NCBI GenBank assembly: GCA_020057085.1
Contig: JAGVGO010000254.1
Coordinates: 1-33,842 of the forward strand
Reading direction: 5' to 3'
DNA length: 33,842 bases
DNA from: Planctomycetota bacterium
GTDB taxonomy: Bacteria > Planctomycetota > Uabimicrobiia > Uabimicrobiales > JABWCH01
This document shows, piece by piece, positions 4,499 through 33,645 of the stretch. The position numbers and the translations under genes were made by a program. The notes beneath the pieces were generated by a model. That model was not told the origin of the DNA, ran no database searches, and saw only the letters and a program-made list of their open reading frames with translations. How positions within the stretch are numbered: the first letter of the stretch is position 1; every line of letters begins with the position of its first letter.

Positions 4499-4516
4499 GT
4501 GACCATGTCCGGTCAC
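4499..4516 (-). terminator. Weak hairpin at the end of the ClC gene
   Basis: GTGACC and GGTCAC form a perfect 6-bp stem around a 6-nt loop, overlapping the ClC stop codon. No T-tract follows on the minus strand, so it is at best a weak or attenuating terminator. Confidence 0.25.
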
Positions 4517-8697: not shown

Positions 8698-9066
8698 TTA
8701 GCATTTGCGACGACGTGGCGGTTTGTCCTTTGCATCCTCCTCCTCGTACTCTTCATCATCGTCCTCGTACTCTTCGTCATCATCTTCTTCATCATCGTCA
8801 TCATCTTCGTACTCTTCATCATCGTCATCGTACTCTTCATCGTCGTCATCATACTCATCATCGTCGTCCTCGTCGTCATCGTACTCTTCTTCGTCGTCTT
8901 CCTCCGGCTTTTCTTCCGGCTCTTCCTTTTTCTTTCTGCCCAGATCCCAGGGTTGCACGTCTGGGGCAAAAGAATCTGTAAAACTACAAATAGAGGCAAA
9001 GTTAGCAACGATGGCGAATTCTTCTTCCAGAGTCTTTGGCTTTTTGAGTAAAGTGACTGACTCCAT
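8698..9066 (-). CDS. Small Asp/Glu/Tyr-rich acidic protein, function unknown
   Basis: This 122-residue protein has an ordinary N-terminal part (residues 1-45, including TLEEEFAIVANFASICSF), a Lys/Glu stretch, and then about 65 residues composed almost only of Asp, Glu and Tyr, with a Tyr every 7-10 positions. It ends in a basic KDKPPRRRKC tail. I do not recognise a family. The ATG at 9066 has GAAAGG upstream; a longer frame from 9183 would overlap the outer-membrane protein gene and has no better site. Such acidic tracts can bind cations or basic partners, but that is only inference. It is the last gene of the tolC-like/outer-membrane-protein unit and is followed by a terminator. Confidence 0.7.
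   Translation of the reverse strand: MESVTLLKKPKTLEEEFAIVANFASICSFTDSFAPDVQPWDLGRKKKEEPEEKPEEDDEEEYDDDEDDDDEYDDDDEEYDDDDEEYEDDDDDEEDDDEEYEDDDEEYEEEDAKDKPPRRRKC
8735..8910. repeat. Trinucleotide-type low-complexity tract
   Basis: The plus strand is built of TCA/TCG/TCC/TCT triplets, with TACTCTTC recurring, and encodes the Asp/Glu/Tyr tract on the minus strand. In-frame length change by slippage is plausible because the unit is three bases. Confidence 0.75.
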
Positions 9067-9101
9067 GCTGTACCTTTCGCAAAAAAAATTTCTACCCATG
9101 C

Positions 9102-16961: not shown

Positions 16962-18620
16962 ATGGACTATATTTCATACAAATTTTCGAAGTTTTCACAT
17001 CATCCCATCGGATGGTGCGCTGAAAATATCTCTTACATTGAACAGGAACAAGATCTCAGGGAAGCCCTCTATCACATATACGATCCTCTCCATATCCTCC
17101 ACCAACAGGGTGCTCTGCTATTCTCCAAAGACCATGTTTCCCTCGTGGCTGAGCCTTCAGCTACAGCCTTAATGGGAACTATCCCGCCCTGCCCTCTGGA
17201 AAATATGGGAAACCAGGATTTTTGCGGGGATCACCATATTCGTTATGCCTATGTATCAGGGTCAATGGCAAATGGCATTGCCTCGGCAGAAATCGTAGAG
17301 ACCCTGGGAAGGAACGGGATGCTGGGCTTTTTCGGCGCAGCAGGGCTATCGTTGGAGAAGGTTGAACAGGCAATCGCTCGCCTTTCCAGCTCTCTCAGAG
17401 GTAAGCCTTATGGATTCAATCTCATCCATAGCCCATCCGAACCGGAACTGGAATCTGCCGTAGTGGATTTATACTTGCGTCGGCATGTACAGCTGCTAGA
17501 GGCATCCGCATATCTAGGGCTTACTTTGCCGCTGGTGCGTTACCGGGTACATGGCATCCAGCGCAATGAACAAGGGCAAATCATAACCCCCAATCGAGTA
17601 ATTGCCAAGGTTTCTCGCGTGGAGGTGGCAGCGCAATTCTTCGCACCGCCTCCCGAAAAATTTTTAAACGAGCTGGTGAACCGAAAAGAGATCACTGCCG
17701 AACAGGCTCAACTGGCAAGAAGTATCCCAGTAGCCCAAGATCTCACTGCGGAAGCGGATTCGGGAGGACATACGGACAATCGTCCGGCCATTGTCATTAC
17801 CCCACTGATGTTGAGTCTGCGAGACCAAATGCAAAGGCAATATGGTTATGCGCAGCCTCTACGCGTGGGCGCTGCAGGTGGAATCGCCACTCCGGCCTCT
17901 GCCGCAGCAGCGTTTTCAATGGGTGCCGATTATATTCTGACAGGCTCTGTCAACCAGTCGTGCTGCGAGTCGGGAACTTCGGACCTGGTACGCGATATGC
18001 TTGCCCAAGCCGAGCAGGCCGATATGGCCATGGCTCCTGCCGCCGACATGTTTGAACTGGGGGTAAAGGTGCAAGTGTTAAAAAGAGGTACAATGTTTGC
18101 CATGCGGGCGGCCCGACTTTATGATCTTTACCGTGCCTATAACTCTATTGAAGAAATCCCTCGAGCAGAGCTGACTAAAATAGAAAAACAGTTTTTTAAG
18201 GCTTCTCACCAGGAGATATGGGAGCAGACCAAAAAATATTTCGCCACACGCGACAGTTTCCAGATTGAGCAGGCGGAAAAAGATCATAAACATAAAATGG
18301 CCCTGATCTTTCGCTGGTATTTAGGGCTTTCGTCGTCCTGGGCAACCTGCGGCGATGAGAGTCGCAAGATTGATTATCAGATATGGTGTGGCCCGGCCAT
18401 GGGTGCTTTCAATCAATGGAGCAAAGGATCCTTTTTGGCATCGCCGGCCAACCGCCATGTGGACACGATTGCTTTCAACCTGCTTTTTGGGGCTGCTGTA
18501 ATTTTGCGCATGAATTGTTTGCGCTATTACGGCATTCAGGTTCCATCATCTCTGTATGCGTTTTCCCCCTTAGACAGGAACAAAATCGAAAATTATTTGC
18601 ATAAGGACGATAAACTTTGA
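16962..18620 (+). CDS. pfaD: PfaD-family trans-acting enoyl reductase of PUFA/secondary-lipid synthase
   Basis: This 552-residue flavoprotein of the nitronate-monooxygenase-like TIM-barrel fold is the separate enoyl reductase of PUFA-type synthases. It reduces selected enoyl intermediates held on the PfaA carrier domains. Family landmarks include FGAAGLS near residue 126, EADSGGHTDNRP (about 266-277), RVGAAGGIATPASAAAAFSMGADYI, TGSVNQSC, and the C-terminal KMALIFRWYLGLSS and GPAMGAFNQW. Length matches known PfaD (about 540). The ATG at 16962 lacks a clear Shine-Dalgarno sequence and sits in an AT-rich leader. It ends in a 4-nt TTGA overlap with pfaA, so translation is coupled. PfaD first in the operon matches the myxobacterial order pfa1-pfa2-pfa3 rather than the Shewanella order, where pfaD comes last. 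Confidence 0.93.
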   Translation: MDYISYKFSKFSHHPIGWCAENISYIEQEQDLREALYHIYDPLHILHQQGALLFSKDHVSLVAEPSATALMGTIPPCPLENMGNQDFCGDHHIRYAYVSGSMANGIASAEIVETLGRNGMLGFFGAAGLSLEKVEQAIARLSSSLRGKPYGFNLIHSPSEPELESAVVDLYLRRHVQLLEASAYLGLTLPLVRYRVHGIQRNEQGQIITPNRVIAKVSRVEVAAQFFAPPPEKFLNELVNRKEITAEQAQLARSIPVAQDLTAEADSGGHTDNRPAIVITPLMLSLRDQMQRQYGYAQPLRVGAAGGIATPASAAAAFSMGADYILTGSVNQSCCESGTSDLVRDMLAQAEQADMAMAPAADMFELGVKVQVLKRGTMFAMRAARLYDLYRAYNSIEEIPRAELTKIEKQFFKASHQEIWEQTKKYFATRDSFQIEQAEKDHKHKMALIFRWYLGLSSSWATCGDESRKIDYQIWCGPAMGAFNQWSKGSFLASPANRHVDTIAFNLLFGAAVILRMNCLRYYGIQVPSSLYAFSPLDRNKIENYLHKDDKL

Positions 18621-21600
18621 GCGATTCATTCTCTCCTATCGCCATTGTCGGCATTGGCTGCCTTTTTCCACAGGCACGAGATTTAGCCTCTTACTGGGCG
18701 AATATTAAAAACAAAGTGGATGCGATCGTAGAGATTCCGCACACCCACTGGACAATGCAGAATTACTATGACGCCGACCCCAAAAAACCGGATCATACCT
18801 ATGGCCACAAAGGAGGGTTTCTTCCCCATGTGGATTTCTCTCCTTTGGAATACGGCATTCTGCCCAACTCCATTGAAGCGACCGACACATCTCAATTGCT
18901 CGGGATGGTGATCGCCAAAGAAGCGATGGAAGATGCCGGGTACGGTGATGGCAAACCATTTGATCGCAACCGTACCAGTGTGATTCTAGGCGTTACAGGC
19001 ACACTTGAACTGGTGATTCCCCTGGGCGCAAGGCTAGGGCATCCTCTCTGGAGACAGGCACTGCGAGAAGAAGGAATCGAAGGAGAAGTGGCGGACGCCG
19101 TCATTGAAAGAATTTCCAATGCTTATGTGTCCTGGCAGGAAGCCTCGTTCCCAGGGCTTTTAGGTAATGTGGTGGCCGGCAGAATCGCCAACTATTTGAA
19201 TTTGGGAGGAACCAACTGCGTGGTGGATGCCGCCTGCGCCAGCTCGCTGGGCGCTCTGCATCTTTCCTCTCTGGAACTCTCCTCCGGTCAGGCTGATATG
19301 GTGATTTCCGGCGGTGTGGATACCTTCAACGATATTTTCATGTACATGTGCTTCAGCAAAACCCCTGCCCTCTCTCCTTCCGGACATGCCAGGTCGTTCG
19401 ACCACCAGGGCGACGGCACCACTCTCGGCGAAGGTATTGGCATGGTCGTCCTCAAGCGGCTCGAAGATGCAAAACGTGACCAAAATAAAATCTATGCTGT
19501 CATTAAAGGCATCGGCTCATCCAGTGACGGCAAAGGGCAGGCCATCTATGCACCGAGTGTCCAAGGTCAGGTAAAGGCATTGCGGAAAGCCTACCAGCTT
19601 GCCGGCATGAGCCCGGGCAGCATCGAGCTTGTGGAAGCTCATGGCACAGGCACTCGCGTCGGGGATACCATCGAAGTCAGCGCTCTTAGCGAAGTCTACA
19701 GTGCTGCGGAAAGAAAAGGATGCTGGTGCGCCATCGGTTCCGTCAAATCCAATATCGGCCATACCAAGGCCGCTGCCGGGGTTGCAGGTTTAATCAAGAC
19801 GGCGATGGCACTTCACCATAAAGTTTTGCCGCCCACGCTGAAAGTGGAAAAACCACTCCCTATGCTGGCTGCCGAAGAAACTCCCTTCTACGTCAATACC
19901 GAACCGAGGCCCTGGCTCACTTCTTCCCAGCCGCGCCGTGCGGCATTGAGCGCACTCGGCTTTGGCGGCAGCAATTTCCACTGCATTCTGGAGGAATTTG
20001 CATCTGCCAAAGCAAAACCGGACTGGGACGGCAGTGTCCAGATTCTCGCTTTTTCGGCGGATTCCAGTGACGGCATTCTGGCGCAGCTTGCCTCCGGTAC
20101 TGTTCCTTCGGCTCAAGGATTTCGGCGTTTTGCCTGGGACACAAGAAACCGTTTCAACCCGCAAGATACCTATCGTCTGGCAATGGTGGCGGAAAAATGG
20201 GATGAACTGGAAAAACTGTATGCTCAGGCCAAAGAAATGTTGTCCCAATGCCCGGAAAAACAGCACTGGAGCTTACCACAGGGGATTTATTTCAGCAGCG
20301 GCGCTAAACATAAAATAGCGTTTCTTTTTCCAGGACAAGGCTCTCAATATGTCGGCATGGGAAGAGACTTAAGCTGCCTGTTTCCCGAAATGCTGGATAC
20401 ATTGAGCCAGGCGGATCAAATCTTCGCGCAGACGGCTGAAAAAAATCAGCGGCTGAGTGATTTTATTTATCCGCATGCCGCTTTCGATGAGAAAAAACGA
20501 GAAGCACAGGAGATCGAGTTGCGCGCCACAGAAGTAGCCCAGCCGGCTATCGGTGCGGTCAGTCTGGGTATGGCCAAAGTGCTGCGACTTTTCAACCTCG
20601 TGCCGGATGCCGTGGCCGGTCACAGTTACGGGGAACTCAGCGCTCTTTGCGTTGCCGGCAGGCTCAACGAAAACGAATTTCATCGCCTTTCTTGCCTGCG
20701 CGGCAAACTCATGTCCCGCTCGGCAGGTCAGGAAGATAGTGGCTCGATGCTGGCGGTGCAGGCGGCGGAAGATCAGGTAGAAAAATTTTTAGAAGCAGAA
20801 AAACTGTGTTTGGTGATTGCCAACAAAAATGCGCCTTTGCAGATGGTCCTCTCGGGTGCCACCCAGGAAATCCAAAAGGCCTCGCAGCTATTCGCTCAAC
20901 AAAACATTAAAAGTACGCTGCTCCCCGTTTCTGCAGCATTTCACAGCCGCCTTGTCGAACAAGCAGCCATGCCATTTAAAGAGAAACTACAAACCATTGC
21001 GTTCATCGCCTCTTCCATCCCTGCGTATGCCAATCGCACAGCGAAAGCTTATCCCGATGATGCGCATGAGGCAAGAGAAGTGCTGGCGAGTCAACTGCCC
21101 CATCCGGTAGAATTTATCCAGGAAATCGAAAACCTATATGCTACGGAAGTTCGCACATTTTTAGAGGTCGGTCCTGGAAACCGCCTGATCGGGTTGGTCC
21201 AGGCAATTCTAAAAAATCGCGATCATCATGCCATTGCTATGGATGCTGCGAGCGGTTCTAAATCAGGAGTTGTGTCCCTGGCCAAAGCCTTGGCTCAGTT
21301 AGCTTCTTTGGGATTGCCCGTTTCACTGAAAACCTGGGATGAAAATCCATCTCTTCCCCTGGCAGTTCCTAAAGGGCATCTTACAGTTCCCATCTGCGGA
21401 GCCAACTATAGAAGCCCTAAAAAAAATAGTCCGCCAAAGGAATCTACACTTACCAAGGAATCTAAAGCAAAAATGAAATCTGCATCTGAACCCCCAAATT
21501 TTTCGGACAAAAATACAACGCCAATGCCTGCACATGCCTCGCCACAGCTATCTCCTTTCTGGAGTGAAGCATTGAAAGTGACCCAGGACAATTTGCTCGC

Positions 21601-24600
21601 TTTGCAAAAAATGCAGGAACAGACTGCCCATCTTCACAATCAATATTTGCAGGGTCAGGAAAAATCACAGCAAATCTTTTATCAGCTTTTTGAGCAACAA
21701 CAAAAATGGATACAGAACTGCATGGGAATCCCCGTTGCAGCCTTGTCGCCCGTTTTGGCTCCGGTTCCCGTTGCAGCTTTGTCGCCCGTTTTAGCTCCGG
21801 TTCCCGTTGCAGCTTTGTCGCCCGTTGCGGCTTTGCCTTCCATTCCCATTTCCATTGCTGCTTCCGTTGCTACTCCTGCTCTCGCTACGAGCAGGATAGA
21901 TTCTCAGCAAACGGAAAAATCTTTGTTGGAGATAGTCTCGGCTAAAACAGGCTACCCGCTTGAGATGATACAATTGACAATGGAAATAGACGCGGACCTT
22001 GGCATAGATTCCATCAAACGGGTCGAGATTTTTTCGGCGCTCCAGGAAAAAATTCCCGAAGCCAGCAAAATACAATCTCAGGATCTGGGTAAATTCAAAA
22101 CCTTGCAGGATGTCGTGAAGTTCTTAGCCACGCCTCTTGCGCCCAATACGAGTGCGACCATAGGCATAGATTCTCAGCCGGCCGTTTCCGTCGCTGCGCG
22201 CGCTACGAATACGACCAGCGGCATAGATTCTTGCCAAGCGGAAAAATCTTTGTTGGAGATAGTCTCGGCGAAAACAGGCTACCCGCTTGAGATGATACAA
22301 CCGACAATGGAAATAGATGCGGATCTTGGCATAGATTCCATCAAACGGGTCGAGATTTTCTCGGCACTCCAGGAAAAAATTCCCGAAGCCAGCAAAATAC
22401 AATCTCAGGATCTGGGCAAATTCAAAACTTTGCAGGATGTCGTGAGGTTCTTAGCCGCGCCCGCTGCTGTGGCCGCGCCCGCTGCTGTGGTTGCGCCCGC
22501 TTCCTCCAGCACGACATCGGGCATCCAACGTTGGCTTCCCATCATCAAAGAATGGAAGCCGCAACAGCAAAATTCCATCCATCTTGCCAAGGGAAGCAGA
22601 ATCTGGATCACACGGGAAAACAGCGGCCTTGGCGAAAAACTCAAAGAGAACCTGCAACACACCTATGCCGTGGAACTGATCTCGTTAGACGAATCTCGTC
22701 TGGGCGTACCGGTAGATCTGCGGGGGGTAATCATCCTGGCGTCTGCCCAAATAACGGACGACTTTTTGCAAAAATCTTTTCTGCTCGTCCAGCAACTCTT
22801 TTCGCTCAAAAAAACAATACCCGCGGCTGACCAGGCTCTCTTGTGCACGGTTTCCCGTATGGATGGCGCTTTCGGTTTTCGGAAATTCCCAACGGCGGCC
22901 GATCCTGTTGCTGGCGGACTTTCTGGGCTATTGAAGACAGCCGCAGAGGAATGGCCGCAACTGCACGGCAGAGCGTTCGACATTGCCTGCGATATGCCCC
23001 CGGCCATGGCCGCATACGAAATCGCCACAACTTTATTCCTGCAAGGGCCAAGAGAAATCGGGATTGCACACGACAAGAAATATTGGATAGATCTGGTAAA
23101 TTCCCCACTCGAATCTTGTGCATCTCATCCGCTTGAGAAAGACGATCTTGTCGTGATCACGGGCGGCGCGCGGGGTGTTACCGCAGACTGCGCAGTGGCG
23201 CTCGCGAAAAATTTTCAACCGACTCTTGCGCTCTGGGGAAGAACAATTTTGCAAAATGAGCCAGCCTGGCTGCGTACTCTGGAAAAAGAAGCCGATATCA
23301 AAAAAACTTTGCTGGCCCAGGGAAATGGCAAGATGACACCTAGGCTTTTGGAAGATGAATATCAAAAAATTGCGGCCCAGCGTGAGATACTCCGGAATAT
23401 CAGGAAAATGGAAGAAGCCGGCGCGAAAGTCATTTACCAGTCGCTGGATGTCTGCGCTACGGAAGCGATGAGCAAAGCCCTGACAGAGCTTGCATCTTTT
23501 GGCCCGGTGCGTGGCTTGCTGCATGGTGCCGGGGTAATTCATGACCGCTTGATTGAAGAAAAAACGCCGGACTCTTTTGCCAAAGTCTATGCCACTAAAG
23601 TCAGAAGTCTTCTAAATCTATTGCGCTTGTTAGATCTGTCGCAGCTCAAAATCATGGTACTCTTTTCTTCCACCACCGCCAGATACGGCCGCAAGGGGCA
23701 GGTTGACTACGCCATTGCCAATGAGGTTCTCAACAAGATCGCCCAGACTCAAGCGCAGACACTGCCCAACTGCAAAGTTCTCTCCATCAACTGGGGTCCA
23801 TGGGACGGCGGCATGGTGAATACATCTCTCAAAAAAATTTTTGCGCAAGAAGGCGTGCCATTGATTGCCAGAGAAAGCGGTGCCGCCTATTTGGCCCAGG
23901 AATTGTGCTCCTCTGCACAGGTGGTGGAAACCGTCATTTTAGGATGTTCGGAGCGCCAGGAAGTTTCTGGAACATTGCCAGCAGACGATATTTCCCTTTG
24001 TTTCCAAGAAAATCTCAGCCTCGAGAGCCATCCCTTTCTCACCTCGCATATTTTGCAGGGCAATCCTGTCCTTCCCGCAGCCATGCTGATGGAATGGATG
24101 GTCGAAGGAGTCTTGCAGCAGAACCCGGGACTACAATTTTGCGGACTGGAAAACTTCCGCATCTTAAAGGGGGTCATTTTAAAGGATGAGGTGGCTTATC
24201 CGCTTTCTATCTGGGCTGGCAAGGCAAGGACCGATGGCGATACTTTGCGTGTCGCGGTGGAAATCAGCGGGCAGGGAAAAAAAGGTGAAAAACTCCTGCA
24301 TGCCCAGGCCGAGGCTTTATTGAGTCAGCAAAAGCCATCTCCCAGGACGGCTAACCAGCGGCCCAGATGGAAACCTTATCGGGGTATCCAGGCGGAAATC
24401 TATAACGGCACACTCTTCCATGGCCCTCATTTCCAGGGAATCCAGGAGGTATTGGCATGTTCCGACGCGGGCATCTGTGGCTTCAGCCAGACTGCTCCGT
24501 TGCCTGCTGCATGGATGCAAAGCCCGTTCCACAAAGCCTGGAGCACCGACCCCATGGCTCTGGATGTGGCTTTCCAATTGATGATCCTCTGGAGCATAGA

Positions 24601-24844
24601 AAAATATTCTGCGCCGTCTCTGCCCTGCCGTGCAAAGCTCTACCGGCAGTATGGCACATTCTATTCCCCGGTGGAAATTCGCATTTACGTCTCTTCCCAC
24701 AATGATAAAAAGGCGCTTGCCGATGTGGAGTTTGTCAATAGCGATGGCAGCCTGGCCGCAGAAATCAAAGATTTCGAATGCACGATTTCCGCGACTTTGC
24801 AAGAGAAATTTCTCGTGAATAAAATTGCGGTAGAGAGGCAATAG
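18617..24844 (+). CDS. pfaA: PfaA-type PUFA/secondary-lipid synthase (KS-AT-ACP-ACP-KR-DH)
   Basis: This 2075-residue multidomain synthase performs chain extension and beta-keto reduction. Domains by residue: KS 5-450, with Cys207 in DAACASS and the His of EAHGTGT and NIGHTKAAAG; AT about 565-860, with Ser670 in GHSYGE; a Lys/Ser/Pro linker and Ala/Pro/Val repeats; two ACPs with pantetheine-bearing Ser1132 and Ser1241, each in LGIDSIKRVEI, the PUFA-synthase signature; KR about 1510-1760, with TGGARGVT and Tyr1698; and a C-terminal PKS-type DH, with His1811 in HxxxGxxxxP and Asp1983. Typical PfaA has five or more ACPs; two is low. The TTG start overlaps the pfaD stop, with AAGGA 8 nt upstream. 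The next lipid gene follows only after the inserted cassette at 24845-25762. Confidence 0.95.
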   Translation: MSDSFSPIAIVGIGCLFPQARDLASYWANIKNKVDAIVEIPHTHWTMQNYYDADPKKPDHTYGHKGGFLPHVDFSPLEYGILPNSIEATDTSQLLGMVIAKEAMEDAGYGDGKPFDRNRTSVILGVTGTLELVIPLGARLGHPLWRQALREEGIEGEVADAVIERISNAYVSWQEASFPGLLGNVVAGRIANYLNLGGTNCVVDAACASSLGALHLSSLELSSGQADMVISGGVDTFNDIFMYMCFSKTPALSPSGHARSFDHQGDGTTLGEGIGMVVLKRLEDAKRDQNKIYAVIKGIGSSSDGKGQAIYAPSVQGQVKALRKAYQLAGMSPGSIELVEAHGTGTRVGDTIEVSALSEVYSAAERKGCWCAIGSVKSNIGHTKAAAGVAGLIKTAMALHHKVLPPTLKVEKPLPMLAAEETPFYVNTEPRPWLTSSQPRRAALSALGFGGSNFHCILEEFASAKAKPDWDGSVQILAFSADSSDGILAQLASGTVPSAQGFRRFAWDTRNRFNPQDTYRLAMVAEKWDELEKLYAQAKEMLSQCPEKQHWSLPQGIYFSSGAKHKIAFLFPGQGSQYVGMGRDLSCLFPEMLDTLSQADQIFAQTAEKNQRLSDFIYPHAAFDEKKREAQEIELRATEVAQPAIGAVSLGMAKVLRLFNLVPDAVAGHSYGELSALCVAGRLNENEFHRLSCLRGKLMSRSAGQEDSGSMLAVQAAEDQVEKFLEAEKLCLVIANKNAPLQMVLSGATQEIQKASQLFAQQNIKSTLLPVSAAFHSRLVEQAAMPFKEKLQTIAFIASSIPAYANRTAKAYPDDAHEAREVLASQLPHPVEFIQEIENLYATEVRTFLEVGPGNRLIGLVQAILKNRDHHAIAMDAASGSKSGVVSLAKALAQLASLGLPVSLKTWDENPSLPLAVPKGHLTVPICGANYRSPKKNSPPKESTLTKESKAKMKSASEPPNFSDKNTTPMPAHASPQLSPFWSEALKVTQDNLLALQKMQEQTAHLHNQYLQGQEKSQQIFYQLFEQQQKWIQNCMGIPVAALSPVLAPVPVAALSPVLAPVPVAALSPVAALPSIPISIAASVATPALATSRIDSQQTEKSLLEIVSAKTGYPLEMIQLTMEIDADLGIDSIKRVEIFSALQEKIPEASKIQSQDLGKFKTLQDVVKFLATPLAPNTSATIGIDSQPAVSVAARATNTTSGIDSCQAEKSLLEIVSAKTGYPLEMIQPTMEIDADLGIDSIKRVEIFSALQEKIPEASKIQSQDLGKFKTLQDVVRFLAAPAAVAAPAAVVAPASSSTTSGIQRWLPIIKEWKPQQQNSIHLAKGSRIWITRENSGLGEKLKENLQHTYAVELISLDESRLGVPVDLRGVIILASAQITDDFLQKSFLLVQQLFSLKKTIPAADQALLCTVSRMDGAFGFRKFPTAADPVAGGLSGLLKTAAEEWPQLHGRAFDIACDMPPAMAAYEIATTLFLQGPREIGIAHDKKYWIDLVNSPLESCASHPLEKDDLVVITGGARGVTADCAVALAKNFQPTLALWGRTILQNEPAWLRTLEKEADIKKTLLAQGNGKMTPRLLEDEYQKIAAQREILRNIRKMEEAGAKVIYQSLDVCATEAMSKALTELASFGPVRGLLHGAGVIHDRLIEEKTPDSFAKVYATKVRSLLNLLRLLDLSQLKIMVLFSSTTARYGRKGQVDYAIANEVLNKIAQTQAQTLPNCKVLSINWGPWDGGMVNTSLKKIFAQEGVPLIARESGAAYLAQELCSSAQVVETVILGCSERQEVSGTLPADDISLCFQENLSLESHPFLTSHILQGNPVLPAAMLMEWMVEGVLQQNPGLQFCGLENFRILKGVILKDEVAYPLSIWAGKARTDGDTLRVAVEISGQGKKGEKLLHAQAEALLSQQKPSPRTANQRPRWKPYRGIQAEIYNGTLFHGPHFQGIQEVLACSDAGICGFSQTAPLPAAWMQSPFHKAWSTDPMALDVAFQLMILWSIEKYSAPSLPCRAKLYRQYGTFYSPVEIRIYVSSHNDKKALADVEFVNSDGSLAAEIKDFECTISATLQEKFLVNKIAVERQ
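21731..21826 (+). repeat. 36-bp tandem repeat coding an Ala/Pro/Val linker in PfaA
   Basis: Units at 21731-21766 and 21767-21802, plus a partial third to about 21826, encode VPVAALSPVLAP. They lie between the helical linker and the first ACP and give the carrier domains a flexible tether. Confidence 0.85.
21913..22463 (+). repeat. Near-identical tandem ACP-coding repeat (period 327 bp)
   Basis: The stretch 21913-22136 recurs at 22240-22463. I count about 10 base differences in some 216 aligned bases, most of them synonymous. The intervening linkers are less alike. This points to a recent duplication or to continuing gene conversion between the two carrier domains. Confidence 0.9.
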
Positions 24845-24866
24845 AGAAATTTCATGGAACAGAGTC

Positions 24867-25067
24867 AACACGCGTCTGATTGCTGACGTGGTCACTGGTA
24901 AGCTCGACGTGCGCGAGGCGAACGCATCAGCGGACTTGTCGGACGGGTCGGACCAGTCGGAATTGTCAGACTTGAACTTGTCGGACGGGCCTGTATTATC
25001 AGACTTGGGTGGGTCTGAATTGTCAGACTCGGATTCGTCGGACTCTTTTTTGGAGGAAACGCTATGA
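24867..25067 (+). pseudogene. 3'-terminal remnant of a type I restriction specificity (hsdS-like) gene
   Basis: Read in the frame whose codons start at multiples of three, this stretch encodes TRLIADVVTGKLDVREA followed by about 45 residues dominated by Ser, Asp and Leu, ending at TGA 25065-25067. The first motif is the characteristic C-terminal end of many HsdS proteins, the DNA-specificity subunit of type I restriction systems. The frame is closed just upstream by TAG at 24831 and has no ATG, so the rest of hsdS is missing and this piece cannot work as a specificity subunit. Its stop overlaps the ATG of the four-helix-bundle gene (ATGA), as expected of adjoining genes in an operon. The match to HsdS is from memory of the family and would need a search. 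Confidence 0.65.
24933..25049 (+). repeat. Degenerate 9-bp GAC-NN-GTCG repeats, upstream copy
   Basis: Repeated GACttGTCg-like units encode Leu-Ser-Asp or Gly-Ser-Asp in the remnant's frame. They are more degenerate than the downstream copy and include several insertions of 6-9 nt. Confidence 0.75.
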
Positions 25068-25738
25068 TCAACGACAACACGCCCATCCTTCCGCACGGGG
25101 GGTACCGCAAGCTGCGCAGTTATGCAGTGGCCGAAGCCGTCTACGACGCTACCGTGGTGTTCTGTCGCCGGTTCCTGGCGCAAGACTGGCGGATGAGCGA
25201 CCAGATGGTGCAAGCGGCGCGCAGCGGGGTACGCAACATCAGCGAAGGGAGCGGAGCTGCTGCGACTTCGCGCAAGACCGAAATGAAGCTCACCAATGTC
25301 GCCCGCGCCAGCCTGAACGACGAGCTGCTGCTGGACTACGAAAGTTTCCTGCGCCAAAAAGGGTTGCGTGTATGGTCCAAGGAATCGCCGGAGGCGCGGG
25401 CGATGCGCGAGCGGCTGCGGCACGACTACGTCGCCAACCTGCCACCCGCACCTCCAGGCTGTGTGCGACTGATCGGGCTCGCCGGACTGGCCGACTTCGT
25501 GGGCAAGGCCGCACCCGAATTTGCCGGCAACGCCATGGTCTGCGCCGTACATCAGGCGACTTATCTGCTCAAACGGCAACTCGCACGCCAGGCACAGGAT
25601 TTCATGGCAGAAGGCGGCTTCACCGAAAACCTGTACCGCCAGCGACAACAGGCGCGTGCCCGCGCGCCAAAGTCAGACAGGTCGGACAGGTCAGACAAGT
25701 CAGACAAGTTGGACATGTCTCAGGGAGGGAAGCCATGA
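25064..25738 (+). CDS. Four-helix-bundle (S23/avd-like) suffix-domain protein
   Basis: This 224-residue protein matches the four-helix-bundle family first known from 23S rRNA intervening sequences and related to the Avd proteins of diversity-generating retroelements. The N-terminal 100 residues carry the family pattern: YRKLRSYAVAEAVYDATVVF, DQMVQAARSGVRNISEGSG and SRKTEMKLTNVARASLNDEL. Residues 135-205 form the longer 'suffix' part, including ANLPPAPPGCVRLIG and CAVHQATYLLKRQL. It ends in a Ser-Asp-Arg/Lys repeat and MSQGGKP. The ATG has GGAGG 7 nt upstream. Long members like this are often encoded next to type I restriction genes, which fits the flanking hsdS remnant. The biochemical role is unknown; no retroelement or restriction gene is intact here. 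It is GC-rich relative to the lipid genes. Confidence 0.85.
   Translation: MINDNTPILPHGGYRKLRSYAVAEAVYDATVVFCRRFLAQDWRMSDQMVQAARSGVRNISEGSGAAATSRKTEMKLTNVARASLNDELLLDYESFLRQKGLRVWSKESPEARAMRERLRHDYVANLPPAPPGCVRLIGLAGLADFVGKAAPEFAGNAMVCAVHQATYLLKRQLARQAQDFMAEGGFTENLYRQRQQARARAPKSDRSDRSDKSDKLDMSQGGKP
25671..25720 (+). repeat. Ordered 9-bp GTCRGACAR repeats, downstream copy
   Basis: Five consecutive units (GTCAGACAG, GTCGGACAG, GTCAGACAA, GTCAGACAA, GTTGGACAT) encode Ser-Asp-Arg/Lys at the end of the four-helix-bundle protein. Each unit contains an imperfect GTC/GAC dyad, so the same Ser-Asp pattern also reads on the opposite strand. Confidence 0.9.
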
Positions 25739-25761
25739 CCACCGATCAAGTCGTTCAGTGA
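25735..25761 (+). pseudogene. Truncated start of a lost downstream gene (eight codons)
   Basis: ATGACCACC... overlaps the four-helix-bundle stop (ATGA) and is preceded by GGGAGG at a proper distance, so it looks like a real translation start. It reads MTTDQVVQ and then meets TGA at 25759. I interpret it as the 5' end of the next gene of the donor operon, cut off at the insertion boundary. The alternative is a chance mini-frame. Confidence 0.4.
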
Positions 25762-25784
25762 CGGTGATGTATAAAGGAAAAAAG

Positions 25785-28700
25785 ATGAAGATTGCCATTG
25801 TAGGAAGAGGAGGCGTTTTTCCTGGTGCTGCGAATTTAGAGGAGTTTTGGCAAAACATCGAGAGCGGCAGGGATATGGCGCAAGAGGCCCCTGCCGCAAG
25901 GTGGACGCTTCCCCTCGCAGATGTATATTCGCCTCACATCGAAGCCGACAAAGTCATCTCAAAGCGAGCCTGCTTTGTCAAAGATTTTTCTTTGGATTTA
26001 ACCGGCTGCAACCTCGGTGCCGATTTGCTCCGGCAACTGGATATTTCCGTGCAAATCCTTCTTGCCGCCGGTATCCAGGCATATAGAGACGGAGTCACTG
26101 CCGCTATTGACAAAAGCAGGATGGGCGTGATTGTGGGGAATATCGTTCTGCCCACAGAAAAAACATCGGCGTTGGCGGTAGAACAGTTCGCGCCAGCCTT
26201 TGAGCATAAGGTCTGGGGCACATCGGCCAGAGCGACAGCAAAGGTGCATCCTCTCAATGCCTTTTCGGCAGGGCTTCCCGCAGGACTGCTCGCGCAAACT
26301 TTAGGTTTGGGCGCGAGCTGCTTCACTCTGGATGCCGCCTGCGCCTCTTCTATCTATGCCATCAAACTGGCGGCCGAAGAGCTTCTTGCCGGCCGTGCCG
26401 ATGCTATGCTGGCCGGCGGCGTATCTCGTCCGGACTCTTTTTACACCCAGATGGGATTTTCCCAGCTCCAGGCTCTTTCTCCGAGCGGCAAATGTTCTCC
26501 CTTCGACCGCAAAGGAAACGGCCTGGTGGTAGGCGAAGGAGCCGGCATATTCCTGCTCAAACGCCTGGCAGACGCTCTACGCAGCGGAGATAGAATCTAT
26601 GCCACCATCGAAGGGATCGGGCTTGCCAACGATGTGCAAGGGACGCTGCTTTCTCCCGACAGCGAAGGGCAGCTCAGAGCCATGCGGCAGGCTTATCTGG
26701 AGGCGGGATGGATCCCCAGGGACGTAGAGCTGATCGAGTGCCATGCGACAGGAACCCCGCTGGGAGACCGTATCGAATTTGCAAGCATGCGTGAGCTGTG
26801 GCGGCAAGAAAGCTGGCAGCAGGGACAATGCGTGATCGGCTCGGTCAAGTCCAATATCGGACATCTCCTCACCGCCGCGGGTGCTGCCGGGTTGATGAAA
26901 ATTTTGTTCGCTTTAGAAAAAAAAGTCTTGCCGCCCACCGCCAATTTCGAATCCCCGGCAGAGAGCATATCTCTTCGAGAAAGTCCTTTTTGTGTACTAT
27001 CGCAGGCAAGGGTATGGGAGAGAACCAGAGCCGCCCAGCCACGACGCGCTGCAGTAAGCGCCTTTGGCTTCGGTGGCATCAACGGACACATGTTGCTCCA
27101 GGCATGGGAGGAACCTGTAAAAACTGGCGTCTCGTTCTCTTCACCACGAGAAAAAACAGACAAAGCAGACACAGTGGCAGCCCAATCGCCAATAGCCATT
27201 GCTATTGTAGGCATGGACTGCCAGGTCGGGCCATGGAAAGGTCTACGCGCTTTTCAAGAACAAGTTTTGGTCGGGAAAAACCATGAAGCTACCCTCCTGA
27301 CGCCTTTGTCGAGAGGGATAGAGCAGCTCAGTACCGGCGACAACAAAAAATTTTCCGGGCATTATCTTAGCAAAATCGAAATTCCGCCTGGCAAATTCCG
27401 CATTCCCCCTAAAGAACTCGAGGAATCGCTTCCCCAACAGATTCTTATGCTGGATGTCTCGCACGGTGCTCTGCAAGACAGCGGGCTGGAAATCGTCGGC
27501 CTGCGCTGTGGTGTTTTTATCGGCATCGCGTTAGATCTCAACACCACCAATTTTCATTTCCGCTGGCACATCCTGAACAGAGCCAGGCAAATGGCAGAAG
27601 AAAAAGGAATGTCGTCCGCAGAAGCGGCGAAATGGATCGCAAAGTCAGCCGATATGGCTGGCCCGCCTCTCACCGCCAACCGCACCATGGGTGCTCTGGG
27701 CGGGATCGTGGCCAGCCGGATTGCGCGGCAATTCCGCATCGGCGGCCCCAGTTTTACCATTTCGAGCGAAGACACTTCCGGATTAAAAGCAATGGAGGTG
27801 GCCATTCGCTTCTTAGAGAGAAAAGAGCTGGATTATGCCCTGGTAGGTGCGGTGGATTTTCCAGGCGACTGGCGCATGTTGACCGCCGCAAAATACCGGG
27901 CGTATGGCAACCCTGATGGCTGGAAGGTTGCGGAAGGTGCCGGGGCACTGGTGTTGCGCAGATTGGAAGATGCAAAGCGGGACGGCAACAAGATCTATGC
28001 GGTGATTGCCGGGATGGGAGCAGTTGCAGGCAAGAGCTATCCGGAAAATTTCGATACGGAGGCCTATTTCAGGGTTCTGCAGAAGGCATACCAGGAAAGC
28101 GGCAGCCACTCGGCAAGCGCAGGTTACTTAGAAGCGTCCGCGCTGGGGCTGCAAGATGCAGGAAAAAAAGAGCGAGAAATTTTGCAGAAATTTTTTGCGG
28201 CGGATGGATATTATGCGCTCGGAAATGTCAAAAAAGAGATTGGGCATGCCGGGGCCGCGAGCGGCCTAATGTCGCTGCTCAAAGCGGTTCTTGTTTTACA
28301 GCAAAATATGCTGCCTGGCTGGAAAGATGCCGACCGGCAGCCGATAGATATGCCCGACCGCTTCTACTTCCCGGCCGATTCGCAGTACTGGCTCCACAAC
28401 CGGGCCGCTGGACCTCGTCATGCAGGTGTTTCCTCTTTTGGGGTGGATGGAAATTATCTGCACGTGATTTTGCAGGAGTCTCCCCTTCCCGCTTTGGCAA
28501 AATCTTTGCTACAGCCATTGGGCGAGAGAACGGAAGTTTTACTCGCTCTTTCTGCCGCTTCTCTCCCCGAGATGCATGCTCTGATACAATACCTTGAACG
28601 CATCTGGGAAAGCCATGGCCAGTCATCTTTAGAAACGTTCGCCAGCATCTGGTGGCAGGAACATCAGGCACATTTTGCTTTGTCTTTAGCCATTCTATTA

Positions 28701-31700
28701 CGCAGAGGTGAAGACCTGCTGGCCAAAACCCGACTTATCCGCAACGCCCTCTCCAGCCCGAGCGAAGAGAATCTGAGCCTGCTACGCAAAGAAAGAATTT
28801 TTTATACGCCAGTACCTTTAGGTAAAGAAAGTAAAATCGCTTTTGTGTTCCCCGGCTCAGGGAATCACTACGTCGGCATGGGGAGAAATATCTCTGTGGC
28901 GTGGCCAGAACTCTTTCGTGAACACGAGCAAACCACTCTCTGGCTGCGCGAGCAATTCTGGAATTTTTCCAGGAATCAAGAGCCGGACTGCCAGTCATTG
29001 ATTTTTGGCCAGGTCGCTTTAGGCATTCTGTTGAGCGATCTCGTCAGAAAATTCAACATACACCCCCATGCAGTCATCGGTTACAGTCTGGGAGAATCCA
29101 CCAGCCTTTTTGCCATGCGGGTCTGGAGCGACAGGGATGAAATGTTCCGGCGCATGAAAAATTCCACGCTCTTTACCGAAGACCTCGCCGGACCTTGTAA
29201 AGCCATACGCAAAATATGGGGAGTCGCTCCGCAGGAAAAGATAGTCTGGGTCGTAGGCATGGTGGACAAAGGCGTAGCCGAAGTAAAAAAAGTTCTGTCG
29301 GGAAAACCGCGTGTCTATCTGTTGATTGTAAATACCCTCTCCGAATGTGTGATTGGTGGCGATGAGCGAGCGGTACAGGCAGCCGTAGCAGAACTGAAAT
29401 GCAATTATCTGCCTCTATCCGGAATTGCCACCGTCCACTGCGAGGCGCTGGAAGCCGTCAAGGAAGCTTACTGGCAGCTCCATTATTTCCCTCTGCATCT
29501 TGCCGCCGCCGTTGAACTCTACAGCGCAGCCTGGGCAATACCCTACGCAGCCACATCGGAAAAGGTTGCCGATTCCATTCTGGCCCAGGCTGTCAGCGGC
29601 TTCGATTTCCCCAAACTACTGGAGCATGCTTATGCACGAGGCTATCGCATCTTTTTGGAGATGGGGCCTGGCTACTCGTGCACTAGGGCTATCCAGAAGA
29701 TTCTGGCAGACAGGCCGCATCTGGCGGTCTCCGCGTGCTATAAAGAAACGGATGAGGCCTCCTCTGTCTTGGCATTGTTGGGAAATTTAATTGCCCAGGG
29801 CGTGAAGGTAGACCTGGGATTTCTCTACGGCGAACAAAAGCAAACGCAATGCCGGCAGGAAAAGCCTCGCCAGGAGGCAACGATTCGCATTTCCGTGGCA
29901 GGCCAACCTCTCCACGCAATTCCGCTACCAAAATATACAGAGCCGGTTTCTCTGCCTCTGCAACAAACGAAGTTGCCCGCTGTGCCTGCGACGATCGCGC
30001 ATAACCTGCTGCCCCATATTGCCTCGGCCCAGCAAGAGCATGCCCTGGCGCATGAGCGTTATCTGCAAATATCCCGGCAATTTACGCAAAATTTCGCGCA
30101 GGCTTTACTGTCGCAGATGAAGTTATTGGCACACATGGCGGCTGGCGGGGAGGTGAAGAAAGTCGCTTACGACCGCAGTATGTGCATGGAGTTTGCCGTC
30201 GGTTCGATTGCGAAAGTGTTTGGGGACAAATTTGCCGAGATCGTCCGGCACCCTACCCGCGTGCGCCTTCCTGCCGAACCGCTCATGCTGGTGGATCGAA
30301 TTTTGACTATCGAAGGAGAGCCTGGTTCCATGCTGTCCGGCCGCGTGGTCACCGAACATGACATCCATGATAACGCATGGTATCTGGATGAAGGGAAAAT
30401 TCCCACCTGCATTGCCGTCGAAGCCGGGCAGGCGGACCTTCTGTTGTCGGGCTATTTGGGGATAGATTTCCAAACCAAAGGCCTGGCCATGTACAGATTG
30501 CTGGATGCGGAAATCACGTTCCATCAATCTCTCCCCACGCCTGGGAAAACCGTACAGTACGATATTCATATCGCCCATTTTTTCAACCAGGGAGAAAGCC
30601 ACCTCTTTCGCTTCCGCTTTGAGGGCAGTGTGGATGGCAGGCCGCTCCTTTCGATGAAAAAAGGATGCGCTGGATTTTTCACCAGGCAGGCTCTGGATGC
30701 GGGTCAGGGGATCGTGCACAGCAAACTGGATCTCGAGCCAGCCCCCGGCAAACTGCCGGCGGACTGGAAATATCCTACCTCCATGGCCGTTGAATTTTAT
30801 GACGAAAAGCAAATTAAAGCTATTTATGCTGGAAATTTAGAGCATGCTTTCGGGCCGGCTTTTAAAAATTTCCCGAGCAAAAATCCTGTTACCCTGCCGC
30901 CAGGCTTTCAAAATTTAATCCACCGTGTCACGCATCTGGACCCTGCCGGAGGGCGCTACGGCATCGGCATCATTCGCTCGGAAGCCGACATTCGGCCCGA
31001 TGACTGGTTTTTGACGTGCCATTTCGTGGATGATATGGTGATGCCAGGCACTTTGATGTATGAATGTTGTATGCATACTCTCCGCATTTTCTTGTTGAGA
31101 ATGGGCTGGATCGCCGAGCGGGGGAAGGCGACTTATGAGCCAGTGCCAGGGGTTAGCAGTCAGCTCAAGTGCAGAGGCCAGGTAATTCCGTCCACCAGGC
31201 AAGCCGCTTATGAAGTGACCATCAAGGAGATGGGGTACAGGCCTGAGCCTTATGTTATTGCTGACGCCATCCTCTACAGTGACGGCAAGGCGATTGTCAA
31301 GATTACCAATATGTCTTTACAAATGAGCGGAGTTTCACAGGAAGAGATTCGTAATTTATGGGAAAAACAATCGCTTGCTGCGTCCGCACAATCTTCTACA
31401 GCCGCACCATATGCTCGCAAACCGGCGCTATTCGACAATGAAAAGATACTGGCCTTTGCGATTGGCAAGCCTTCGGCAGCGTTTGGCGAGCCCTACCAAA
31501 TATTCGATGCCGGTCGCGTCATTGCGAGATTGCCCGGTCCTCCCTACAAATTTTTAGACCGCATTACCGAGATTCATGCCCAAGCATGGAAGATGACGGC
31601 CGGCGGCAGTATCGAGGCGCAGTATGATGTGCCGCGCGCCGAGTGGTATTTCGATGCCAATGGCGGGCAAGGGATGCCTTTTGCCGTACTGCTCGAAATC

Positions 31701-32498
31701 GCACTACAGCCTTGCGGTTGGTTTGCTGCATATCTAGGCTCGGCCCTGATGAGTGAGAGCGACTTGTCCTTTCGCAATTTGGGTGGTCAGGCGGTCCAAT
31801 ATTTGGCAGTCCCACCGGAGATCGGCACGCTCACGACCAAAATCGAGGCTACCAATATCTCCCATTCGGGAGGCATGATTATACAACATTACGATATGGA
31901 GATGGCCGGTAAACAAGGGTTAATCTATAAAGGAAACACCTACTTTGGCTTTTTCTCCAAAGCGGCGCTCGCCAATCAAGTGGGACTTCAGGGAGTAAAG
32001 CTGTATGTTCCCAGCGAAACAGAGATGCAAGCGAAGCAAAGTTTTAGCTATCCCGCAAGTTTCCCCTTTCCGGAGCCGCAGCTGCGGATGGTGGATCAAA
32101 TCGACATTTTCCTGCCCAAGGGCGGCCCGCAGCAAATGGGCTTTATCCAGGGAAGCAAACTGGTAAATCCGACCGACTGGTTTTTTCAGGCACATTTTTA
32201 CCAGGATCCGGTGTGGCCTGGCTCTTTGGGGTTAGAATCCTGCCTGCAACTTTTAAAAGTGTGGGCTGCGCAAAGATGGGGAATTACGCCGCAAACCCGC
32301 ATGTCAACGGTAGCTCTAAATAAAAAACATACATGGGTTTACCGGGGGCAAGTCATTCCCAAAGACCATAAAGTCACAGTACAGGCGGTTATTACCCAGA
32401 TAAACGAAGCCGAACGCCTCATTCTTGCGGATGGGTATCTGGTGGTGGATAACAGAATCATTTACCAAATGAAAGATTTCAGTTTACAGATGCTTTAG
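25785..32498 (+). CDS. pfaC: PfaC/Pfa3-type PUFA synthase (KS-CLF-AT-DH-DH)
   Basis: This 2237-residue protein completes the synthase. Domains by residue: KS 1-440, with Cys186 in DAACASS, ECHATGT and SNIGH; CLF about 468-905, a second KS-like domain whose active-site Cys is replaced by Asp663 (SSEDTSG); AT about 1015-1340, with Ser1101 in GYSLGES; then four FabA-like hotdog folds making two DH didomains. Hotdogs 2 and 4 keep the catalytic His (His1746 in CHFVDDMVMPG, His2137 in AHFYQDPVWPG); hotdogs 1 and 3 lack it. The layout equals myxobacterial Pfa3 without its C-terminal acyltransferase, and unites functions that are split between PfaB and PfaC in Shewanella. ATG 25785 has AAAGGA 6 nt upstream; longer in-frame starts lie within the inserted cassette. 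Confidence 0.93.
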   Translation: MKIAIVGRGGVFPGAANLEEFWQNIESGRDMAQEAPAARWTLPLADVYSPHIEADKVISKRACFVKDFSLDLTGCNLGADLLRQLDISVQILLAAGIQAYRDGVTAAIDKSRMGVIVGNIVLPTEKTSALAVEQFAPAFEHKVWGTSARATAKVHPLNAFSAGLPAGLLAQTLGLGASCFTLDAACASSIYAIKLAAEELLAGRADAMLAGGVSRPDSFYTQMGFSQLQALSPSGKCSPFDRKGNGLVVGEGAGIFLLKRLADALRSGDRIYATIEGIGLANDVQGTLLSPDSEGQLRAMRQAYLEAGWIPRDVELIECHATGTPLGDRIEFASMRELWRQESWQQGQCVIGSVKSNIGHLLTAAGAAGLMKILFALEKKVLPPTANFESPAESISLRESPFCVLSQARVWERTRAAQPRRAAVSAFGFGGINGHMLLQAWEEPVKTGVSFSSPREKTDKADTVAAQSPIAIAIVGMDCQVGPWKGLRAFQEQVLVGKNHEATLLTPLSRGIEQLSTGDNKKFSGHYLSKIEIPPGKFRIPPKELEESLPQQILMLDVSHGALQDSGLEIVGLRCGVFIGIALDLNTTNFHFRWHILNRARQMAEEKGMSSAEAAKWIAKSADMAGPPLTANRTMGALGGIVASRIARQFRIGGPSFTISSEDTSGLKAMEVAIRFLERKELDYALVGAVDFPGDWRMLTAAKYRAYGNPDGWKVAEGAGALVLRRLEDAKRDGNKIYAVIAGMGAVAGKSYPENFDTEAYFRVLQKAYQESGSHSASAGYLEASALGLQDAGKKEREILQKFFAADGYYALGNVKKEIGHAGAASGLMSLLKAVLVLQQNMLPGWKDADRQPIDMPDRFYFPADSQYWLHNRAAGPRHAGVSSFGVDGNYLHVILQESPLPALAKSLLQPLGERTEVLLALSAASLPEMHALIQYLERIWESHGQSSLETFASIWWQEHQAHFALSLAILLRRGEDLLAKTRLIRNALSSPSEENLSLLRKERIFYTPVPLGKESKIAFVFPGSGNHYVGMGRNISVAWPELFREHEQTTLWLREQFWNFSRNQEPDCQSLIFGQVALGILLSDLVRKFNIHPHAVIGYSLGESTSLFAMRVWSDRDEMFRRMKNSTLFTEDLAGPCKAIRKIWGVAPQEKIVWVVGMVDKGVAEVKKVLSGKPRVYLLIVNTLSECVIGGDERAVQAAVAELKCNYLPLSGIATVHCEALEAVKEAYWQLHYFPLHLAAAVELYSAAWAIPYAATSEKVADSILAQAVSGFDFPKLLEHAYARGYRIFLEMGPGYSCTRAIQKILADRPHLAVSACYKETDEASSVLALLGNLIAQGVKVDLGFLYGEQKQTQCRQEKPRQEATIRISVAGQPLHAIPLPKYTEPVSLPLQQTKLPAVPATIAHNLLPHIASAQQEHALAHERYLQISRQFTQNFAQALLSQMKLLAHMAAGGEVKKVAYDRSMCMEFAVGSIAKVFGDKFAEIVRHPTRVRLPAEPLMLVDRILTIEGEPGSMLSGRVVTEHDIHDNAWYLDEGKIPTCIAVEAGQADLLLSGYLGIDFQTKGLAMYRLLDAEITFHQSLPTPGKTVQYDIHIAHFFNQGESHLFRFRFEGSVDGRPLLSMKKGCAGFFTRQALDAGQGIVHSKLDLEPAPGKLPADWKYPTSMAVEFYDEKQIKAIYAGNLEHAFGPAFKNFPSKNPVTLPPGFQNLIHRVTHLDPAGGRYGIGIIRSEADIRPDDWFLTCHFVDDMVMPGTLMYECCMHTLRIFLLRMGWIAERGKATYEPVPGVSSQLKCRGQVIPSTRQAAYEVTIKEMGYRPEPYVIADAILYSDGKAIVKITNMSLQMSGVSQEEIRNLWEKQSLAASAQSSTAAPYARKPALFDNEKILAFAIGKPSAAFGEPYQIFDAGRVIARLPGPPYKFLDRITEIHAQAWKMTAGGSIEAQYDVPRAEWYFDANGGQGMPFAVLLEIALQPCGWFAAYLGSALMSESDLSFRNLGGQAVQYLAVPPEIGTLTTKIEATNISHSGGMIIQHYDMEMAGKQGLIYKGNTYFGFFSKAALANQVGLQGVKLYVPSETEMQAKQSFSYPASFPFPEPQLRMVDQIDIFLPKGGPQQMGFIQGSKLVNPTDWFFQAHFYQDPVWPGSLGLESCLQLLKVWAAQRWGITPQTRMSTVALNKKHTWVYRGQVIPKDHKVTVQAVITQINEAERLILADGYLVVDNRIIYQMKDFSLQML

Positions 32499-32511: not shown

Positions 32512-33645
32512 ATGACCACGTCACGTTATACGGAACAGGAGGAGGCAGCGCGCACTACTTTTCGCAGATTTGTCGAAAAGAAGGTGCTGCCCCAGGCAAA
32601 AGAGATTGATGAAGCCAAAGCGTTTCCCAGAAAACTCTTTGTCGAGGCCGGTGAGTTGGGCTTTTTCGGCATGCGCTATCCGGAAAAGTGGGGCGGCAAC
32701 GAAGCCGGAACGCTGGCTTATCTGTTAGCGGTGGCGGAGCTGGCCCGTGGCAATTTGTCACTGGCCGCCTGCTGCACCATGCAATCTTTGATGGGTACCT
32801 ATTTCATCTTTCGCTCAGGGCAGGATAGTCTGTGCGAAAGGTTTCTGGCTCCCGCCATTCGCGGAGACAAAGTCGGCACCATCTGCATGACCGAACCCAA
32901 TGCAGGCAGCGACCTGGATGCCATGACTACTACGGCCAAAGAGGATGGCCAATGCTTTGTCCTGAACGGCACCAAGACCTGGATCACCTCGGCCCCGGTT
33001 GCCGATTTTTTCACTGTGTTCGCCGTCACGGGCGACAAAAAAGAGTTGAGTATCTTTCTGGTCGAGAGCGGCACGCCAGGATTGATCGTCGGGAGGAGCA
33101 TCGAAAAGATGGGGCTGTGGGCTTCTCTCACTTCCGAAGTCATTTTCGACGGCTGCAAGATTCCCAAATCTCATCTTCTGGGAAACAAGAACCAGGGCCG
33201 GGACTATTTGCGGGAAATTTTGGCCAAAATCCGCCTGACCACCGCGGCTCTGGCCCTGGGCGTCGGGGAAATCGCTCTGGAAGAGGCGACCCGCTACGCC
33301 AACGAGCGGGTGCAGTTCGGCAAACCCATCGGCAAGTTCCAGGCGGTCAGTATGAGCCTTGCTGAACGGGCAACAGAGATGGAAGCAGCGCGACATCTCA
33401 TGGAATATGCTGCCTGGCGCGAAGACCAGAACCTCGCCAACATGAAAGAAGCCTCGATGGCCAAACTTTTTGCCAGCGAAACGGCGCTCAAAGCGTGTGA
33501 AAGCGCGGCGCGGGTGTTTGCCTCTTATGGCTATGCCATGGAATATCCAGTGCAAAGATACCTGCGCGATGTCCGCTTTACTTTGATCGGCGGTGGCACC
33601 TCGGAAATTCTGAAACTTGTCATCGCAAAAGAGATGGGACTGTAG
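32512..33645 (+). CDS. Acyl-CoA dehydrogenase family flavoprotein
   Basis: This 377-residue FAD enzyme belongs to the acyl-CoA dehydrogenase family, which normally makes a trans-2 double bond in acyl thioesters. Signatures include ICMTEPNAGSDLDAM (residues about 123-137), FVLNGTKTWITSAPVADFF, and RVQFGKPIGKFQAV; the C-terminal block is RYLRDVRFTLIGGGTSEIL. At the position of the usual catalytic Glu (YEGT in medium-chain dehydrogenase) it has Gly, as in long-chain and isovaleryl enzymes. However, the alternative helix-G Glu of those enzymes appears as Ile in KIRLTT. Either the base is elsewhere or the reaction differs. It starts 13 nt after pfaC with AAGGTG upstream, so it belongs to the lipid operon and may act on the synthase product or on a carrier-bound intermediate. 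Confidence 0.9.
   Translation: MTTSRYTEQEEAARTTFRRFVEKKVLPQAKEIDEAKAFPRKLFVEAGELGFFGMRYPEKWGGNEAGTLAYLLAVAELARGNLSLAACCTMQSLMGTYFIFRSGQDSLCERFLAPAIRGDKVGTICMTEPNAGSDLDAMTTTAKEDGQCFVLNGTKTWITSAPVADFFTVFAVTGDKKELSIFLVESGTPGLIVGRSIEKMGLWASLTSEVIFDGCKIPKSHLLGNKNQGRDYLREILAKIRLTTAALALGVGEIALEEATRYANERVQFGKPIGKFQAVSMSLAERATEMEAARHLMEYAAWREDQNLANMKEASMAKLFASETALKACESAARVFASYGYAMEYPVQRYLRDVRFTLIGGGTSEILKLVIAKEMGL

Follow-up and report, generated by a model that had tools for sequence, protein, structure and literature searches.

A four-helix-bundle suffix gene and its 9-bp repeats point to an undescribed partnership that spreads without a known transposase

Introduction

The nearest described kind of system to the gene and repeats treated here is REP/RAYT (REPINs). 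REP/RAYT (PMC2817692, PMC3116915) comprises short, dispersed, mostly non-coding repeats and a partner gene that is flanked by the same repeats, the type of repeat varying with the protein lineage. Genes of the TIGR04258 family resemble this arrangement, since many of them are flanked by the dispersed repeat of their own genome and their repeat type and protein lineage co-vary. However, their protein is an S23-type four-helix bundle in which no transposase domain was found, the transposase being what defines REP/RAYT. The repeat is also a run of about four 9-bp units instead of a 20-40 bp palindrome, and inverted pairs are rare.

A second comparison is with the S23/IVP proteins (PF05635) of the intervening sequences of 23S rRNA. 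These share the fold (PDB 2gsc) and a way of life, a small open frame carried within a host locus that is transcribed and remains functional. In contrast, TIGR04258 genes occupy gene junctions and not rRNA, and carry an extra suffix domain and 9-bp arrays, and the window protein scores below the PF05635 cut-off. The Avd protein of diversity-generating retroelements belongs to a related four-helix family (PMC10053308); no reverse transcriptase or pair of template and variable repeats was recognised among the neighbouring genes scanned. The TIGR04258 family model is silent on repeats as far as can be checked, and our literature search found no paper that names the family or prints these repeats, which is weak evidence given that most subscription journals lay outside the search. 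Taken together, the protein, the form of the repeat and the lack of a transposase match none of the systems tested. We therefore regard the gene-repeat system as new, a judgement that goes too far if the arrays prove to be the binding sites of a regulator.

Results

An insertion in a lipid-synthase operon

The window, a contig of 33,842 nucleotides from a planctomycetotal metagenome-assembled genome (MAG; G000), contains a pfa operon that is interrupted between pfaA and pfaC. Its relevant features are the following.

16962-18620: pfaD, host operon
18617..24844, + strand: pfaA, host gene left of the insertion (TIGR02813, omega_3_PfaA, 1508.9 bits; stop at 24844)
24869..24935, + strand: hsdS gene tail, TRLIADVVTGKLDVREANAS, brought in with the insertion; 13-15 residues identical to the HsdS tails of loci L084, L100 and L123
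24936..25050 (about), + strand: upstream 9-bp array, degenerate, with the unit GTC[GA]GACNN, which continues the reading frame of the hsdS tail (TRF and pattern search)
25064..25738, + strand: four-helix-bundle suffix gene, 224 amino acids (TIGR04258, TIGR02436)
25670..25714, + strand: downstream 9-bp array, GTCAGACAA/GTCGGACAG, within the 3'-terminal part of the four-helix ORF (TRF period 9, 4.4 copies; pattern search)
25735..25761, + strand: MTTDQVVQ and stop, 8 codons from ATG at 25735 to TGA at 25761; tentatively, the probable first codons of hsdR
25785..32498, + strand: pfaC-like gene, host gene right of the insertion (ATG 25785; ORF with KS domains and a FabA-like dehydratase)
32512-33645: acyl-CoA dehydrogenase, host operon

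The hsdS tail, the upstream array, the suffix gene with the second array in its 3' end, and the short MTTDQVVQ frame fill a gap of 940 bases between pfaA and pfaC. In seven relatives, including the same-order genomes L187 and L195, the pfaA stop and a conserved pfaC motif are separated by 14-142 bp without an extra gene. The segment is therefore an insertion, as the initial annotation had proposed, and it is not a common possession of related pfa operons. The same annotation had called the segment GC-rich; its GC content is raised, but modestly (0.57-0.58 vs about 0.51).

The edges of the insertion fall within the HsdS tail (24868/24869) and within the HsdR head (about 25746), both outside the arrays. 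A rule that insertion edges always coincide with arrays is thus ruled out in the window, though it holds in genome G159 (see below). The tetranucleotide AGTC is present at both edges (24862-24865 and the region of 25748-25751) and could represent a 4-bp duplication, microhomology or chance. These 4 bp are the only candidate microhomology at the edges, and the suggestion that the insertion was a product of repeat-guided recombination did not find support. Profile searches, including Pfam, detected no transposase gene in 24845-25784. A complete type I restriction operon (hsdM, hsdS, hsdR) is absent from the segment, which holds only the hsdS tail and the probable hsdR head, and no second TIGR04258 gene was found in the incomplete assembly of the window's own genome.

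Two further features of the window lie away from the insertion. A chloride-channel protein (4513-6876) combines CBS and PTS EIIA-2 domains, an unusual pairing, and a long low-complexity tandem repeat (8733-8927; period 21 and 9, TCATCATCG-like) lies in or beside a small minus-strand ORF.

Restriction-operon source of the slice

The frame 24870..25067 opens with the hsdS tail listed above and matches true HsdS tails in L123 (HTRLIAEVVTGKLDVREAA) and L100 (RTRLIADVVTGKLDVRAA), whose C-termini conform to [RH]TRLIA[DE]VVTGKLDVR.A, the same tail as in the window. The Methylase_S domain (PF01420) was found in the ORFs of L084, L100 and L123 that bear this tail, and DNA similarity between the window and L084 starts at 24869. 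The HsdS-like C-terminus that had been read from the upstream frame is therefore genuine. At the other end, the residues MTTD match the HsdR starts of L123 (MTTDTSERVLE) and L084 (MTTNTSEKGLE). The 8-codon start at 25735 is probably the head of hsdR, an assignment that is tentative because it draws on four residues and on position; the first codons of another gene had been correctly noticed, and it is their identity that is weak. ATGA overlaps join the upstream stop to the gene start at 25064 and the gene stop to the next ATG at 25735, as described earlier.

Locus L084, from a verrucomicrobial MAG, presents an HsdS tail, an array, a TIGR04258 gene, an array, the HsdR-type head and a second HsdS tail, in that order. 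Since L084 holds the same slice, the source was presumably an L084-like restriction locus, and the comparison suggests where the insertion in the window originated. These alignments show that the window slice comes from a type I restriction operon (hsdS end, array, gene, array, hsdR start), and edges of former neighbours, that of hsdS and probably that of hsdR, were carried along as had been supposed. In L084 itself (8821-9080) the HsdR head is fused to the second HsdS tail behind the four-helix gene, marking a recombined restriction locus.

The four-helix-bundle suffix protein and its relatives

The window protein passes TIGR04258 (four helix bundle suffix) at 60.9 bits against a cut-off of 40, which confirms the intact suffix gene of the initial annotation, and TIGR02436 at 27.6 bits against 24. 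Its match to PF05635 (25.3, cut-off 33.8) is below the family threshold and is the sole Pfam match; no nuclease or transposase domain was found in it with Pfam and TIGR profiles. An AlphaFold2 model (pLDDT 83) adopts a four-helix-bundle fold. The best PDB match of the model is the S23 protein 2gsc, with a Foldseek probability of 1.00 but an E value of 0.09, and its best chains give TM scores, normalised by target length, of 0.86-0.89. A HUH tyrosine transposase was absent by Pfam, and no such fold was recovered in the PDB search. PADLOC defence models assigned no family to three TIGR04258 members.

In scans of genome contigs a single-protein query gave no match, and an alignment query found the relatives. 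The closest are 66-75% identical to the window protein and group with it in a single clade of 12 rows (support 100/100) drawn from Verrucomicrobiota, Lentisphaerota, Planctomycetota and Thermodesulfobacteriota. Neighbours in this clade include CheB/CheR-PAS and histidine-kinase genes (L078 and L079, with L081 alike by sequence clustering); in L084 the gene sits between hsdS and hsdR, and other members lie elsewhere. Such a spread over four phyla and several gene contexts speaks for mobility. Among more distant members, hsdM, hsdS or hsdR adjoins the gene in about a dozen loci, and the cas7-cas4 junction of type I-C CRISPR operons hosts it in about 14 (Pfam checked in L127, the rest by sequence clustering), a placement unmentioned in the papers found. 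The type I-C loci include L103, L107, L121, L127, L130, L131, L139, L155, L049, L052, L053 and L058. No relatives were found in viral contigs, and a plasmid search returned one distant copy and no DNA match. Gene orientation showed no significant bias. Overlaps of the -4 ATGA type were only mildly enriched at gene joints (33/137 vs 15/113, p 0.036), so ATGA is not claimed as an insertion target. One locus, L068 (G094:C655), has two TIGR04258 domains, and its loop arrays of GTCCAT units reach 36-44 copies.

Arrays that accompany the gene

We surveyed about 110 TIGR04258 loci from many phyla, 80 of which, from genome contigs, were used for array density. The array unit is 9 bp, a 7-bp core beginning with GTC and two variable bases, and in many members arrays are found on either side of the gene, upstream and downstream, and within it, in the loop that precedes the suffix domain. 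In the window arrays, GTCNGACNNGTCNGAC matches eight times with at most one mismatch, where 0.02 matches are expected by chance. Both of the 9-bp repeats reported in the initial annotation are thus present, but the second forms part of the 3' end of the four-helix coding frame instead of following it, and encodes SDRSDRSDKSDKLDM within the protein.

Period-9 arrays are concentrated at the gene, with a density of 0.72 per kb within 400 bp of it and 0.046 per kb farther away. A GTC-type array occurs within 600 bp in 46 of the 80 loci, whereas only 2 of 26 four-helix genes without the suffix have an array even within 1.5 kb (Fisher p 7e-6); these controls come nearly all from the set of genomes that carry the suffix gene. 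Where a locus has both in-gene and flanking arrays, their core classes agree (24/25 loci; permutation p 5e-5).

Gene and 9-bp repeats turn up together as a unit in settings that are otherwise unrelated. Two adjacent copies of the gene in G159, in tandem, have an 860-bp block in common (88.7%). The block starts some 40 bp ahead of the outer upstream array and stops at the downstream one, and no other single case shows so clearly a unit whose limits are the repeats. The compact mobile unit that had been postulated finds support in these recurrences, though not in the window, where the edges lie outside the repeats.

Repeat class and protein lineage

Array cores were assigned to five classes: A, GTCNGAC; B, GTCNTAT; C, GTCNGAT; D, GTCCAY; and E, GTCCCW. 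The window arrays are of class A. On a tree of 107 proteins, whose rows are not independent events, the five classes require 5 changes, compared with a minimum of 4 and a shuffled mean of 33.5, and none of 200 shuffles was as low. Part of the protein is itself encoded by the in-gene array, and the test was therefore redone with the loop removed and with classes taken from outside the gene only; four classes then needed 3 changes, as few as possible, and shuffled labels 16.4 on average. The 7-bp array core therefore varies with the protein lineage. Host phyla are mixed within core classes, and for this reason common descent of the hosts does not by itself readily explain the pattern.

Solo arrays elsewhere in the genomes

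Typed three-unit patterns were sought in 33 genomes, and arrays were considered solo after matches within 1 kb of the gene had been removed. A pattern that ignored the unit, five GTC spaced 9 bp apart, proved too noisy and was dropped in favour of the typed patterns, as its reversed controls scored as high in many genomes; the reversed typed patterns gave no match in any of the 33. Solo arrays were present in 20 genomes and, by this strict pattern, lacking in 13. Their commonest class was that of the gene in 18 of the 20 (permutation p 5e-6), a count that is slightly soft because the off-gene status in two genomes (G159, G144) was judged from listed contig positions and TRF output supplied the class of some loci, L135 among them. 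Solo arrays thus share the core code of the TIGR04258 gene in the same genome. This lineage-specific code goes beyond anything in the initial annotation.

Detailed reading of 39 solo arrays gave a modal length of 4 units, and 6 of them had an inverted partner within 120 bp. The cultured Victivallis vadensis DSM 14823, a carrier of class A, has 19 matches to the array pattern. No conserved flank was seen around the solo arrays of G144. The window's genome holds an 80-bp element in about 23 copies, mostly between genes, in which conserved ends (GATGAAAC and GTTTCAT) enclose the array. Its layout is TTTTTTTCAAGATGAAAC, a GTCNGAC array and GTTCATGTTTCATAGAA, and copies lie on contigs C5, C38, C111, C114, C139, C225 and others (L198-L225). 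The pfa junction shows some similarity to the ends of this element (GAGTCGTTCA, TTTCATGGAA) that is too short to rely on. Beyond a typA/bipA-like gene, contig C130 of the same genome (L002) breaks off within a pure GTCCGACAA array, which makes it probable that arrays break the window's assembly.

Discussion

The results point to the gene and its 9-bp repeats as an undescribed partnership that spreads without a known transposase, and we infer that the four-helix protein moves the repeats. The explanation that we favour, and consider somewhat probable as a whole, is that the window received a recent slice of a restriction operon with a TIGR04258 gene and GTCNGAC arrays, and that recognition by the protein of its own array underlies the spread of the system. 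The protein would recognise the array as DNA or RNA, paired with it much as a RAYT protein is paired with REP sequences, and this recognition would lie behind the dispersal of solo arrays and, more rarely, that of the gene itself. Because the protein has no recognisable nuclease or transposase domain, it would need a partner enzyme, and a host enzyme or a reverse transcriptase may do the cutting and joining. The open frame and ATGA coupling would let the unit sit in operons without stopping downstream genes.

Several observations count against this explanation. No excision or polymorphic site was seen, the insertion in the window has its edges outside the arrays, and the window is a contig of a MAG that is 59% complete. 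About 40% of TIGR04258 loci have no detectable array within 600 bp, and half of the class A genomes (7/14) have none beyond the gene. The window copy has lost the C-terminal zinc ribbon, of topoisomerase type, that is present in relatives such as L078. Finally, G235 (L226-L228; 84% complete) carries GTCCCTCGC arrays on several contigs and gave no TIGR04258 match.

The main rival, which we regard as unlikely, holds that nothing is mobile: the four-helix protein would act as a regulator, either a repressor or an RNA binder; it would bind to the arrays, and those scattered over the genome would make up its regulon. Such a factor and its operators would explain why protein and core co-vary, and arrays do lie just upstream of the gene, with many solo arrays being intergenic (24/28 in the window's genome). 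But arrays are also found inside the gene and after its stop, solo arrays are not consistently at promoters, 19 of 32 sampled from other genomes are inside ORFs predicted with crude gene calls, and the S23 fold is no known DNA-reading fold. Quite unlikely, in our judgement, is that the arrays multiply by slippage or some unrelated mechanism and that the gene is cargo, moved by homologous recombination between arrays or together with defence operons. Array lengths vary, arrays could serve as recombination sites, and G235 has arrays and no detected gene, all as this account would have it. It leaves unexplained, however, why core class tracks the protein tree across phyla even with the loop removed, why suffix-less four-helix genes of the same genomes lack arrays, and why solo arrays have a modal length of 4 units.

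That a restriction-operon fragment was wrongly joined into the pfa operon during assembly or binning is very improbable. The MAG is fragmented and repeats break its contigs, as in C130, but the halves of the pfa operon continue in order on both sides of the segment, an artefact would take two false joins independent of each other, both edges fall outside repeats, and L084 has the same kind of slice.

The favoured explanation, recognition by the protein of its own array, can be extended into a more specific proposal that we advance tentatively and hold to be doubtful as it stands. TIGR04258 would be the specificity factor of a transposase-free system of dispersed repeats. Each lineage would read a 9-bp code, made up of a 7-bp GTC core and 2 variable bases, copy blocks of about 4 units to other sites in the genome, carry one block within its own gene and occasionally enter operon junctions, including those of defence operons, perhaps through RNA and a reverse transcriptase as with Avd. 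A block of about 4 units measures 36 bp, and the reading frame would therefore be kept.

If the favoured explanation is correct, bacteria would have a widespread class of dispersed repeats whose matched protein is something other than a transposase. It would extend over at least a dozen phyla, with frequent placement inside CRISPR type I-C and type I restriction operons. A function would be given to an unnamed protein family, and the 9-bp repeats of many genomes would be explained. The family would also supply natural pairings of proteins with repeats, whose recognition code may be read from alignments, and would be relevant to a long-standing question, the route by which the related S23 genes enter 23S rRNA genes.
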